Of a DNA stretch of 64,000 bases, positions 220 through 4,839 are shown piece after piece. Each line of letters begins with the position of its first letter. The first letter of the stretch is position 1. The position numbers and the translations under genes were made by a program. The notes below the pieces were generated by a model. It ran no database searches. It saw only the letters and a program-made list of their open reading frames with translations, and was not told the DNA's origin. Source of the stretch: Crocinitomicaceae bacterium (GTDB lineage: Bacteria; Bacteroidota; Bacteroidia; Flavobacteriales_D; Crocinitomicaceae); the NCBI GenBank assembly GCA_024643365.1, contig JAHENC010000020.1, positions 124,001 through 188,000 of the forward strand. Reading direction: 5' to 3'.

Positions 220-699
220 ATGAAACAAGTAAGTCTAGCATCCATTGAGAAAGCCATCGAAATCGTTGACCATTTAACGGACGATCAATTAGAAAATGTA
301 TCCGAAAAATATGCCTTGGCACAACAAGAATTGTTGGATTATGTCATGACAGCTCCTTCTGAGTACGAAAACGAAGATTTAGAAGGATTATTAATTTATT
401 ATTTCTGTGTTATTTCAGAATGTTTTACCCAGGAAGGAATTAAACTTCGTCAAGTTACCGAAGCGGACATCGATGAAATCGAAGAACCATATTTTGATAT
501 GTTAGAACAATACTTCGATGAAGAAGATGAAGAAATCATCGAATCGTTCTGTGATCAACCCTTTCTAGCGCAATTCATGGCCATGGAAGTATCTACCGAA
601 GATGAAGATGGTTCAAGTTTGGATGAAGAAACTGCTACTCAATTGTTTATTGTAACGTTAGCGATGGTTTCTTTAATGAATCGTGCAATCGAAGCATAG
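220..699 (+). CDS. Hypothetical protein, strongly acidic
   Basis: 159-aa ORF with many Asp/Glu; no family recognised. Confidence 0.75.
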   Translation: MKQVSLASIEKAIEIVDHLTDDQLENVSEKYALAQQELLDYVMTAPSEYENEDLEGLLIYYFCVISECFTQEGIKLRQVTEADIDEIEEPYFDMLEQYFDEEDEEIIESFCDQPFLAQFMAMEVSTEDEDGSSLDEETATQLFIVTLAMVSLMNRAIEA

Positions 700-936: not shown

Positions 937-1941
937 ATGAAGATTTCCGCATCTATTTACAGCGATAAAAGTCGCTCTTTAAAAGAAGTGATTCTTGATT
1001 TAGTTGCGCATCAAGTGGACCTATTGCATGTCGACTGCAACGATGATTTGAGTGTTTTTGATGATATCGCCAACATTCGAACCTGGTGCAACTTACCCGT
1101 TGACTTACACATCATCACCGAAAATCCATCAAAGTATTACGATTTGTTGGAAAGAAATCCAGTTGAATACGTGACTTTTCAGGTGGAAAATTTACAGGAG
1201 CCCTTGGAAATCCCTGCAAGTGTTACAGGTAAAAAGGGTTTGGCCCTCATTACCCCTACTCCTATCTCGGCTTTTGATCCCTATTCGGACTTTGATTTTA
1301 TTTTAATCATGGCTACAATACCTGGACAAAGCGGAGGGAAATTTGACCGTCAGAATTTTGCTAAAATCAGACAATTTCGCGCGAAATATCCGAGTAAATC
1401 CATTCACGTAGATGGTGGAGTAAATGGAGAGGTATCCTTCATCCTTCGAAACATGGGTGTAAGTTCTGCCGTTTCCGGATCCTATTTGTTTAATGGACCG
1501 AGTATCGGAAATGCGTTAATGAATTTAACGAAACGTGAAATTGAATCCACTTTTGAAATTGGTGACTTCATGATTCCTTTGGAAGAAGCACCAACGTTTG
1601 ACGCCTCCACCTGTACGACGCGCAGCATCCTCGAAGCTGTTGAATTCGGACAAATGGGATTCGCGTTAGCCATCGGTGAGGAAAATGCCTTAACGGGGAT
1701 CGTTTCCAGTGCGGACATCCGCAAAACGTTTTTGAAAAACCTAGAACAACCTACTCAAATTGAAGCAAGTGAATTCATCAATCGTCAGCCTTTGTGCATT
1801 GAAGAGAAAGCGACGGTGGTTGACTTGTTACAACTCTTAAAGAAATCGAACTTCCCTGTGATGTATCTTCCAGTCGTGAATGAAAAAAAACAAGCAGTGG
1901 GAATTATTAATTTTGTCAACCTCATCAAGGGAGAACTATGA
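937..1941 (+). CDS. Ribulose-phosphate 3-epimerase-like TIM barrel with C-terminal CBS domains
   Basis: LLHVD, VDLHIITENP, IMATIPGQSGGKF, HVDGGVN, SGSYLFNG correspond to Rpe motifs; C-terminal ~110 aa look like a CBS pair (FALAIGEENALTGIVSSADIRK... FPVMYLPVVNEKKQAVGIINFVNLIK). Confidence 0.75.
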   Translation: MKISASIYSDKSRSLKEVILDLVAHQVDLLHVDCNDDLSVFDDIANIRTWCNLPVDLHIITENPSKYYDLLERNPVEYVTFQVENLQEPLEIPASVTGKKGLALITPTPISAFDPYSDFDFILIMATIPGQSGGKFDRQNFAKIRQFRAKYPSKSIHVDGGVNGEVSFILRNMGVSSAVSGSYLFNGPSIGNALMNLTKREIESTFEIGDFMIPLEEAPTFDASTCTTRSILEAVEFGQMGFALAIGEENALTGIVSSADIRKTFLKNLEQPTQIEASEFINRQPLCIEEKATVVDLLQLLKKSNFPVMYLPVVNEKKQAVGIINFVNLIKGEL

Positions 1942-2936
1942 TCATTCAATTAAAATCAACCGTTGGCGCAACTGAATGTGCCACATTAGCTGAAAAACAC
2001 AAAGCTTTTCACATTACCTACGAAGGAAAAAACTTACTCATTACCGGATCTGGATTGAAGGAAGTTCCTGCAGACCTAGAAAACCTTTGCGATGAACATT
2101 GGGTATTCGCCAATGACATTCAATTGGCTTCGAAACGATTTCGCTCCGATAAAAGAGAAGTGAAAATCGGAAACGTAAGCATCGGTGGAAATACAAAAAA
2201 CACCATATTAATCGGTGGACCTTGCTCCGTTGAATCCGAGGATCAAATTCGTTCGTCTGCGGAATTGCTTGTTGGAATGGGATTAAGCACGCTTCGTGGC
2301 GGATGCTACAAACCAAGAACAAGTCCCTACTCTTTCCAAGGATTAGGTTTGAAAGGATTGCAACTATTGGCAAAAATGAGAACCGAATATGGTTTAAATG
2401 TCATTACGGAAGCCAGAGATGCGACACACATTGATGAAATCATCGAACACACTGATATCATCCAAGTTGGAGCGAAAGCAATGTACGATCAAGGAATTTT
2501 ACGCGCTTGTGCAAAAATCAAAAAACCGGTTTTAATCAAACGTGGATTTGGAACAACCTTGCAAGAATTCGTTCAAGCCGCTGAATTTGTATTAGCTGGT
2601 GGAAACGAAAACGTGATTCTTTGCGAACGCGGTATTCGCACCTTCGAAACAGGTACGCGATTCACCTTGGATCTTTGCGGTGTTGCTTGGCTACAAGAAC
2701 ACACAAATCTTCCTGTTATTTTAGATCCTTCACATGCGATGGGATACGCGTACGGCGTTAATCCACTAGCACGTGCCTGTGTAGCGATGGGAATTGATGG
2801 GCTTTTAATCGAAGCACATCCAAATCCGAAAGTGGCGAAATCAGATGCTTCACAGCAATTGAATTACGAAGAATTCAAGCAATTACAAAAAGACCTACAA
2901 GCTGTTGCAGCAAGTGTTGGTTACAAAATGATTTAA
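1938..2936 (+). CDS. aroF: 3-deoxy-7-phosphoheptulonate (DAHP) synthase, type I-beta with N-terminal ferredoxin-like/ACT-like domain
   Basis: GGPCSVES, LRGGCYKPRTSPYSFQGLG, LIKRGF, ILCERGIRTFE, ILDPSHAMG. Confidence 0.9.
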   Translation: MIIQLKSTVGATECATLAEKHKAFHITYEGKNLLITGSGLKEVPADLENLCDEHWVFANDIQLASKRFRSDKREVKIGNVSIGGNTKNTILIGGPCSVESEDQIRSSAELLVGMGLSTLRGGCYKPRTSPYSFQGLGLKGLQLLAKMRTEYGLNVITEARDATHIDEIIEHTDIIQVGAKAMYDQGILRACAKIKKPVLIKRGFGTTLQEFVQAAEFVLAGGNENVILCERGIRTFETGTRFTLDLCGVAWLQEHTNLPVILDPSHAMGYAYGVNPLARACVAMGIDGLLIEAHPNPKVAKSDASQQLNYEEFKQLQKDLQAVAASVGYKMI

Positions 2937-2937
2937 G

Positions 2938-3615
2938 ATGTTATTAGAACAAAATATAAAAGGACTTTGTCAAAAAAACGGAATTGAGTTTGATGACTTC
3001 TTGTCCGATTTGGATGTGGAACACGTAAATGAACTTTCCGTGTATGATTTAGAAGCTGTTTGTGAAGAATACGAAGTCGATTTGACTGCACTGCTATTCA
3101 AACCTTTATTTCGCAACAACCATTTCAAAAAACAACTTGATAAACTGAAATTACTCATTTTGGATGTTGATGGCGTTTTAACCGATGGTGGAATGTTCAT
3201 GAGTGAAAAAGGAGATCAATTAAAACGTTACCACACACAAGATGGCTTGGCCATCATGCATGTCGTGAAAAATGGTCCGGTTCAACTGGGAATCATTTCC
3301 TCCGGATTCACGGAACATATGGTACAAGATCGTGCAGCAGTTCTCGGAATCGAACGTGTATATGTCGGACGCGAACCAAAATTAGACATTCTCAACACTT
3401 GGTGTAGTGAATTAGGAATCAGCTTAAATGAAGTTGGAATCATCGGCGATGACGTCAATGATTTAGCAGTCATGAAAGCAGTCGGACTATCTATTTGTCC
3501 TTCTTCTGCGGTAAACGCCGTTAAAACGGAATGCCACATCATTCTATCTCGTAAAGGTGGAGATGCGTGTGTTCGTGAATTTATCGACCAATACTTACTA
3601 CCACAAGGAATTTAA
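2938..3615 (+). CDS. KdsC-like HAD phosphatase with ~60-aa HTH-like N-terminal extension
   Basis: LDVDGVLTDGG, GREPKLDIL and IGDDVNDLAVM motifs; N-terminus IKGLCQKNGIEFDDFLSDLDVEHVNELSVYDLEAVCEEYEVDLTALLF resembles an XRE-type HTH. Confidence 0.8.
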   Translation: MLLEQNIKGLCQKNGIEFDDFLSDLDVEHVNELSVYDLEAVCEEYEVDLTALLFKPLFRNNHFKKQLDKLKLLILDVDGVLTDGGMFMSEKGDQLKRYHTQDGLAIMHVVKNGPVQLGIISSGFTEHMVQDRAAVLGIERVYVGREPKLDILNTWCSELGISLNEVGIIGDDVNDLAVMKAVGLSICPSSAVNAVKTECHIILSRKGGDACVREFIDQYLLPQGI

Positions 3616-3618
3616 TTT

Positions 3619-4839
3619 ATGAAATCAATCAAATTAGGTGTCATCCGTGAAGGAAAAGTACCACCAGATTTTCGTGTTCCATTGACACCGAAACAATGCA
3701 AAGCAATTGAAGTACTTTATCCCGAAGTGAAGGTTGTCGTTCAACGTAGTCCCATTCGAACATATCCGGATGCATCGTACGCAGAACAAGGAATAGAACT
3801 TGTCGATCAGTTAAACGATTGCGACTATATCTTTGGTGTGAAAGAGGTTCAAATCGCGGATTTAATACCAAACAAAACCTTTTTCTTCTTTTCGCATACC
3901 TTCAAAAAACAACCGTACAATCGTGATTTGTTGAATGCGGTGTTGGATAAAAAAATCCGTTTGGTTGATTACGAAGTATTAAAAGACAAATACAACAAAC
4001 GAATCATTGGATTTGGACGTTATGCGGGAATTGTCGGTTGCTACAACGCGTTTTTAACCTATGGATTGAAATCGGGACGTTACGCGATGAAACCTGCACA
4101 TGAGTGCGAAGACCGTAAGGAAGTGGAACAAGAATTAAAAAAAGTAGACCTACCTGCTGATTTCCGCGTAGTATTAACGGGATTTGGACGTGTTGGACAC
4201 GGTGCGAGAGAAATCATTGATCTTTTGCCAATCACTGAAGTGAGTCCAGAAGAATACTTAAAAAATGCATTTGAAGGTCCTGTTTACACGCATTTAGAGG
4301 CCGAAGACTATTTTGCGCCGAAGGATGGAACGACTTTCATGAAAAAGGATTTCTATTCGACGCCGGAAAACTACCTTTCTACCTTTGGTCGCTACTCCAA
4401 AAAATCGGACATGTACATCCCTTGTCATTTCTGGAGTGCAAAATCCCCGTTCATTTTAACCAACGATGATTTACTGCATGCGGAAAACCGCATCAAAGTA
4501 GTCGGTGACATTTCTTGTGATATCGCTGGTCCTATCGCATGCACTATCCGTCCAAGTAAAATCGGCAATGGAATTTATGGCTACGATCCACTTACACAAA
4601 CCGAAGTTGATTTTATGAAGGAGGGTGCAATTGCGGTCATGGCAATTGACAACTTACCTTGCGAATTACCAAAAGATGCATCGGAAGATTTCGGGAATGA
4701 ACTTTTGAAACAAGTGCTTCCATGTCTGTTTGGTAAGGATCCCGATGAAGTCATTGCACGAGGTTCACAAACCACAACATCGGGAGAATTAACAGAAGGA
4801 TTTAGCTATTTGAGCAAATACATCGCTGGATTAGAATAA
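3619..4839 (+). CDS. LYS1-like saccharopine dehydrogenase / AlaDH-PNT family oxidoreductase
   Basis: IKLGVIREGKVPPDFRVPLTPKQC N-terminus; FGRYAGIVGCYNAFLTYG; VVLTGFGRVGHGAREI. Confidence 0.75.
   Translation: MKSIKLGVIREGKVPPDFRVPLTPKQCKAIEVLYPEVKVVVQRSPIRTYPDASYAEQGIELVDQLNDCDYIFGVKEVQIADLIPNKTFFFFSHTFKKQPYNRDLLNAVLDKKIRLVDYEVLKDKYNKRIIGFGRYAGIVGCYNAFLTYGLKSGRYAMKPAHECEDRKEVEQELKKVDLPADFRVVLTGFGRVGHGAREIIDLLPITEVSPEEYLKNAFEGPVYTHLEAEDYFAPKDGTTFMKKDFYSTPENYLSTFGRYSKKSDMYIPCHFWSAKSPFILTNDDLLHAENRIKVVGDISCDIAGPIACTIRPSKIGNGIYGYDPLTQTEVDFMKEGAIAVMAIDNLPCELPKDASEDFGNELLKQVLPCLFGKDPDEVIARGSQTTTSGELTEGFSYLSKYIAGLE

Follow-up and report, generated by a model that had tools for sequence, protein, structure and literature searches.

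Gene layout and conservation of the triad

The window examined here is a 64,000-nucleotide stretch of a Crocinitomicaceae genome (assembly GCA_024643365.1, contig JAHENC010000020.1, positions 124,001 to 188,000; our genome G000, 2.53 Mb and 99.9% complete), and our subject is a cluster of four co-directional open reading frames near its start (Table 1). The nearest named relatives of this genome are Crocinitomicaceae assembled from metagenomes. The four frames encode a fusion of an Rpe-like barrel to a pair of CBS domains (Rpe-CBS), a protein resembling 3-deoxy-D-arabino-heptulosonate 7-phosphate (DAHP) synthase (DAHPS) that we term DAHPSx, a KdsC-type HAD phosphatase, and an LKR/LYS1-like dehydrogenase. 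The first two frames overlap by 4 nt and the following gaps measure 1 nt and 3 nt, in agreement with the tight packing described in an earlier, sequence-only reading of the locus. Matches to Pfam and NCBIfam models also bear out the domains which that reading had assigned to the first three genes, hereafter the triad.

Table 1. Coordinates of the cluster in the window and of FSA/transaldolase-CBS fusions at other loci
Feature	Location	Strand	Description
Rpe-CBS fusion	937..1941	+	334 aa; Rpe-like barrel aa 1-197 and KdsD-type CBS pair aa ~207-331
CBS pair inside Rpe-CBS	1588..1911	+	aa 218-325, the extent of the KpsF match
DAHPSx	1938..2936	+	332 aa; DAHP-synthase-like, type I-beta; proposed 3-deoxy-ulosonate-phosphate synthase
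KdsC-type HAD phosphatase	2938..3615	+	225 aa; TIGR01670; ~60-aa N-terminal extension
LKR/LYS1-like dehydrogenase	3619..4839	+	406 aa; best solved relative human AASS
FSA/transaldolase-CBS fusion	L190:6715-7728	-	KdsD-less Flavobacteriales
FSA/transaldolase-CBS fusion	L189:6763-7773	-	KdsD-less Flavobacteriales
FSA/transaldolase-CBS fusion	L193:6570-7577	+	KdsD-less Flavobacteriales

A census of 295 genomes of the order at a threshold of E<=1e-25 recovered Rpe-CBS in 115, comprising nearly all members of the window's family (f1, the aquatic Crocinitomicaceae) and single genera of three other families (f3/g13, f8/g41 and f10/g17). In a draw of 397 genomes from the phylum, the fusion was found in two, both within Crocinitomicaceae. 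When 102 loci were compared, some of which share one genome, the order Rpe-CBS, DAHPSx, HAD was kept in 92, and most of the remaining loci stop at a contig edge. Where the overlap between Rpe-CBS and the DAHPS gene could be measured (98 cases), it came to precisely 4 nt in 89. In G168 the order is genuinely broken: Rpe-CBS lies ~11 kb away from a DAHPSx-HAD pair that itself lies <=5 kb from WaaA. The cluster is thus not confined to this strain: the triad is a conserved unit in Crocinitomicaceae and in three Flavobacteriales genera outside that family, and its gene order is far beyond chance. A search of open-licence papers found nothing on Rpe-CBS with DAHPS or on Kdo in Crocinitomicaceae.

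Carriers of the triad lack KdsA and KdsD

3-Deoxy-D-manno-oct-2-ulosonic acid (Kdo) is the sugar that links lipid A to the remainder of endotoxin, and few parts of Gram-negative biology are as well conserved as its synthesis. The pathway comprises KdsD, KdsA and KdsC, followed by KdsB, the cytidine monophosphate (CMP)-Kdo synthetase, and WaaA, the Kdo transferase. We determined the distribution of these genes in a fixed draw of 148 genomes of the order, consisting of 101 non-carriers and 47 carriers of Rpe-CBS, the latter being 41 Crocinitomicaceae plus G047, G053, G065, G073, G126 and G132; G007 was scored as a carrier, its contig starting within the last 22 residues of Rpe-CBS.

KdsA (TIGR01362) was found in 0 of 47 carriers and in 94 of 101 non-carriers, counting copies broken by a contig end as well as intact ones; the seven non-carriers without it include several incomplete drafts. 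The carriers' best matches in the KdsA search (1e-22 to 1e-40) are DAHPS-type proteins. One such match in the window genome, on contig C10, was rejected as KdsA, the locus being a DAHPS-chorismate mutase beside aroA. The KdsD SIS domain was present in 87 of 101 non-carriers and in none of the 47 carriers except G106, where a SIS protein scoring a weak 92 bits is encoded away from the triad. KdsB and WaaA occur across carriers and non-carriers alike; in the window genome they lie on C12 and C10, respectively, and they are also kept in the single-contig genomes G136, G139 and G159. The absence of KdsA and KdsD is strong in f1, where several genomes are single contigs at 99-100% completeness (G130, G136, G139 and G159). 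Comparing carriers with non-carriers, Fisher tests gave p ~1e-31 for loss of KdsA and p ~1e-26 for loss of KdsD, and the pattern recurs in f3/g13, f8/g41 and f10/g17, whose relatives keep both genes. The parallel to the Kdo pathway that the sequence-only reading had drawn as an analogy is thereby raised to a probable replacement, with KdsA and KdsD gone from the carriers. Where it had asked about true kdsD, kdsA and kdsC, the window genome lacks KdsD and KdsA and has a second KdsC-type protein.

Rpe-CBS apparently joins a new catalytic half to the regulatory half of KdsD

The N-terminal domain of Rpe-CBS is Rpe-like (Pfam E 2.6e-22), with no match to the SIS catalytic domain of KdsD, while its score against the Rpe equivalog model, 74.8 bits, falls below the cut-off of 212.6. 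Like Rpe and D-allulose-6-phosphate 3-epimerase, it has the barrel, the metal ligands, the acid/base residues and the phosphate-binding loops; S6, H31, D33, H58 and D159 are invariant in 36/36 Rpe-CBS proteins, the last four being the metal ligands and acid/base residues. It differs from Rpe in its fused CBS pair, in the replacement of the two active-site methionines of the housekeeping enzyme (N or K at 35, I at 60) and in a loop after strand 2 that is shorter by 6 residues. Because the metal and acid/base residues are kept and the two methionines and the loop are lost, the residue pattern fits an active enzyme with altered specificity. A housekeeping Rpe is encoded elsewhere in the genome, and the fusion is not the ordinary ribulose-5-phosphate epimerase that would have undercut the earlier reading.

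The CBS part alone matches positions 166-268 of the KpsF/GutQ profile TIGR00393. Among 12 Rpe-CBS homologues tested, all 12 matched TIGR00393, 11 matched the KdsD model NF008141 and 6 matched GutQ. In an AlphaFold2 model (pLDDT, the per-residue confidence score, 84.3), the barrel matches solved Rpe structures and the CBS pair finds its best structural match in that of a putative D-arabinose 5-phosphate isomerase (4o9k, whose ligand we take to be CMP-Kdo). Taken together, these comparisons suggest that the regulatory half of KdsD was kept and the catalytic half apparently swapped.

DAHPSx is a divergent subfamily with links to kds genes

DAHPSx exceeds the cut-offs for type I-beta DAHPS (NF006421, 358.7 bits against 335; TIGR01361, 319.2 against 267.75) and falls short of that for KdsA (TIGR01362, 123 against 314). 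The KdsA motifs KANRS and PAFLxRQ are not present, and KPRTS and GAKAMYDQG stand there instead. Its top solved relatives are the type I-beta DAHP synthases of Thermotoga maritima and Pyrococcus furiosus, which share its barrel family and KPRTS; an N-terminal region of ~60 aa is also common to DAHPSx and the T. maritima type, and the P. furiosus enzyme reportedly uses five-carbon sugars. DAHPSx departs from these enzymes in its operon with Rpe-CBS or kds genes, in being a second copy in addition to a DAHPS-chorismate mutase and in its GARNxQNF motif, which the subfamily replaces with GAK(A/S)MYD(Q/H)G or close variants; R180K, Q183Y and N184D are specific to it.

The window genome holds only two PF00793 genes, of which DAHPSx is one. 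The other is fused to a chorismate mutase domain (matching that of E. coli) and is directly followed by aroA, which reads as EPSP-synthase-like. The genome thus has the additional aroF-type enzyme that the sequence-only reading had asked about, and DAHPSx is not its sole shikimate entry enzyme. G030 differs from the window genome in that only a few kb separate its triad from its DAHPS-chorismate mutase and aroA (L045:2917-3633).

Outside the triad, DAHPSx directly follows KdsD-KdsA-KdsB in G054, G068 and G123 and KdsD-KdsA in G094, pairs with a helix-turn-helix (HTH)-HAD gene in G043 and G061, and adjoins an unrelated gene in G086, G117 and G129. In a tree, triad DAHPSx forms one clade (95/93) that is sister to the G043/G061 pair. 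These placements fit a route that began with kds-linked DAHPSx, passed through a DAHPSx-HAD pair and ended in the complete triad, KdsD and KdsA being lost, although the tree leaves the order of events and the direction of transfer unproven.

The KdsC-type HAD

The HAD protein scores 130.5 bits against TIGR01670 (cut-off 106.95); HAD motif I is present in 41/41 homologues and motif IV in 39/41. Its N-terminal ~60 aa (window 2938-3150) resemble a degenerate XRE-type HTH, and one homologue (L176:8079-8750) matches HTH_3 at 23.1 bits, just above the cut-off of 23. The HAD of f3/g13 carriers is 158 aa long and does not have the extension. It is one of two KdsC-type proteins in the window genome, and so not the sole KdsC, the second (C23, L053:9522-10040, minus strand) lying beside a 255-aa Rossmann-type protein that is presumably DUF2520-like. 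HTH-HAD homologues in family f4 adjoin other genes rather than DAHPSx, so this HAD is not exclusive to the triad; these loci (L289:6854-7504, L291:6812-7459 and others) have a conserved neighbourhood of their own, with FKBP-type and YaaA-like genes recognised by eye.

A KdsB substitution tracks the triad

We aligned 55 KdsB sequences, 24 from triad genomes and 31 from KdsA-pathway genomes. Position 142 (Haemophilus influenzae numbering) is Ile in 24/24 of the former and Val in 31/31 of the latter, and it is the only such column. Triad KdsBs occupy three separate places in the KdsB tree, those of f3 and f8 carriers grouping with their own families, and among random three-clade sets 1 in 20,000 had a column of this kind. 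In Aquifex aeolicus KdsB, Kdo binding and dimerisation have been ascribed to the domain that holds residue 142 (PMC3149649). The alignment thus indicates that KdsB has changed in step with the triad.

A second apparent exchange of the KdsD catalytic domain

In 10 of the 14 remaining KdsD-negative genomes, a domain resembling fructose-6-phosphate aldolase (FSA) is fused to a KdsD-type CBS pair (FSA-CBS). It adjoins KdsA in G038 (L190) and lies beside KdsA in G105 (L191). One of the three candidates, KdsD, Rpe-CBS or FSA-CBS, is found in 144/148 genomes, and those without any (G111, G149, G167 and G170) are drafts of 57-90% completeness. Both fusions combine another catalytic domain with the KdsD-type CBS pair in KdsD-less genomes, but FSA-CBS genomes keep KdsA and have an FSA barrel, whereas Rpe-CBS carriers lack KdsA and have an Rpe barrel. 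E. coli FsaA is reported to cleave D-arabinose-5-phosphate reversibly to glycolaldehyde and glyceraldehyde 3-phosphate (PMC6900487), and FSA-CBS is a candidate new source of arabinose-5-phosphate. In the KdsA of one FSA-CBS genome, G036 (L202:6612-7442, plus strand), KDNRS and PAYLVMQT take the place of the KANRS and PAFLCRQT seen in the other aligned KdsA proteins.

Genes flanking the triad

An LKR-like gene follows the triad in 78/102 loci, but it does not adjoin it in several Crocinitomicaceae genera or in any carrier outside the family. For that reason we rejected it as a core member. The LYS1-like dehydrogenase of the sequence-only reading is therefore present without being part of the unit, and LKR-like describes it better (human AASS, E 4e-34, against yeast LYS1, 1e-10, among solved relatives). 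In G091, the FSA-CBS fusion has an LKR-like gene ~2 kb away (L193:9392-10597, plus strand) that is 53% identical to that of the window, so genes of this type occur near both kinds of KdsD substitute. The genes 3' of HAD vary (for example, a MiaA-like gene) and add no further member to the core. Upstream of the triad, window 220-699 encodes an acidic 159-aa protein that has no Pfam or NCBIfam match and whose place is conserved in many genomes of the genus.

A proposed replacement pathway and its alternatives

We consider it probable that the triad replaces KdsD, KdsA and KdsC and that its product is passed via KdsB and WaaA to lipid A. In the pathway we infer, Rpe-CBS would make an aldose phosphate; the simplest starting material would be ribulose-5-phosphate, the obvious candidate substrate because it is common to Rpe and KdsD. 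The Rpe fold may carry out an isomerisation to arabinose 5-phosphate, and feedback acting on the KdsD-type CBS pair could gate the enzyme. DAHPSx would condense the aldose phosphate with phosphoenolpyruvate to a 3-deoxy-ulosonate phosphate, from which HAD would take the phosphate; the retained KdsB would then make the CMP-sugar and WaaA would put the sugar on lipid A. With the Kdo pathway this system shares the KdsD-type CBS pair, a PEP-condensing synthase of the same superfamily, a KdsC-type HAD, KdsB and WaaA, and it differs in having an Rpe barrel for the SIS domain, a type I-beta DAHPS for KdsA and Ile142 in KdsB. The dephosphorylated 3-deoxy-ulosonate product put forward in the sequence-only reading gains support from the loss of KdsA and KdsD with KdsB and WaaA kept.

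Several observations weigh against this proposal. Rpe chemistry, the epimerisation of a ketose at C3, gives no aldose directly, and DAHPSx retains the KPRT of enzymes that use erythrose 4-phosphate (E4P) rather than KANRS, which argues against arabinose 5-phosphate as its substrate. DAHPSx is also present in KdsA-positive genomes and so is not simply a KdsA substitute, while the existence of a second KdsC-type protein means that the triad HAD may be dispensable. No column in WaaA tracks the triad. Finally, the Fisher p-values overstate the case, as the independent lineages number only about four, and absence is weaker evidence in G065 (71% complete), many of the sampled genomes being drafts.

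Because KdsB carries the Val-to-Ile change in triad genomes and DAHPSx has kept KPRT, the product may be an analogue of Kdo (a 3-deoxy-ulosonic acid that is shorter or a stereoisomer), and we lean slightly towards this over Kdo itself. The missing KANRS insertion beside KPRT, the replacement of KdsA along with KdsD and V142I in KdsB fall on the analogue side; the KdsD-type CBS pair, the well-conserved KdsB and WaaA and the reported five-carbon use by the P. furiosus enzyme fall on the side of Kdo. A bolder version is possible, at somewhat below an even chance: Crocinitomicaceae and a few other Flavobacteriales would have abandoned Kdo and would tie lipid A to the remainder of LPS with another 3-deoxy-ulosonic acid. 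This sugar would come from an enzyme of Rpe fold, subject to feedback by a CMP-sugar, and a synthase of the DAHPS family, and KdsB would have been re-tuned through Val142Ile.

The sequence-only reading had also suggested a CBS-gated supply for the shikimate pathway, in which Rpe-CBS would raise flux through pentose phosphates and E4P, DAHPSx would act as a second DAHP synthase and HAD would trim excess DAHP. The DAHPS-level scores and KPRTS of DAHPSx are in keeping with such a role, as is the G030 locus, but a dedicated DAHPS-chorismate mutase already sits next to aroA, and the scheme leaves unexplained the KdsD-type CBS pair, the place of DAHPSx in kds operons and the loss of KdsA and KdsD exactly where Rpe-CBS occurs; we regard it as improbable. 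Equally doubtful is a product unrelated to lipid A, such as free or polysaccharide-bound 3-deoxy-heptulosonic acid, with Kdo arising by another, undetected route: several genomes have DAHPSx alongside KdsA, so its role need not be confined to Kdo, yet carriers keep KdsB and WaaA, for whose sugar no other source is visible, and the change in KdsB accompanies the triad. That 41/47 carriers belong to one family raises the prospect that loss and gain are linked by ancestry only, or that KdsA and KdsD have diverged past detection. This seems to us the least probable account, as the pattern appears in three genera of other families whose relatives keep both genes, the KdsBs that could be placed, those of f3 and f8, group with their own families, and the KdsA profile scores >300 bits elsewhere in the order.

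Implications

If the triad does replace KdsD, KdsA and KdsC, these bacteria would offer a clear case of whole-pathway displacement, in which both first enzymes were swapped while the CMP-transfer and lipid A steps were kept. Rpe-CBS and FSA-CBS, both uncharacterised fusions, would gain roles, as would a DAHPS subfamily labelled a shikimate enzyme by family models. The two fusions point to the KdsD-type CBS pair as a regulatory module that can be reused, and the findings raise the possibility that Crocinitomicaceae make an endotoxin without Kdo.

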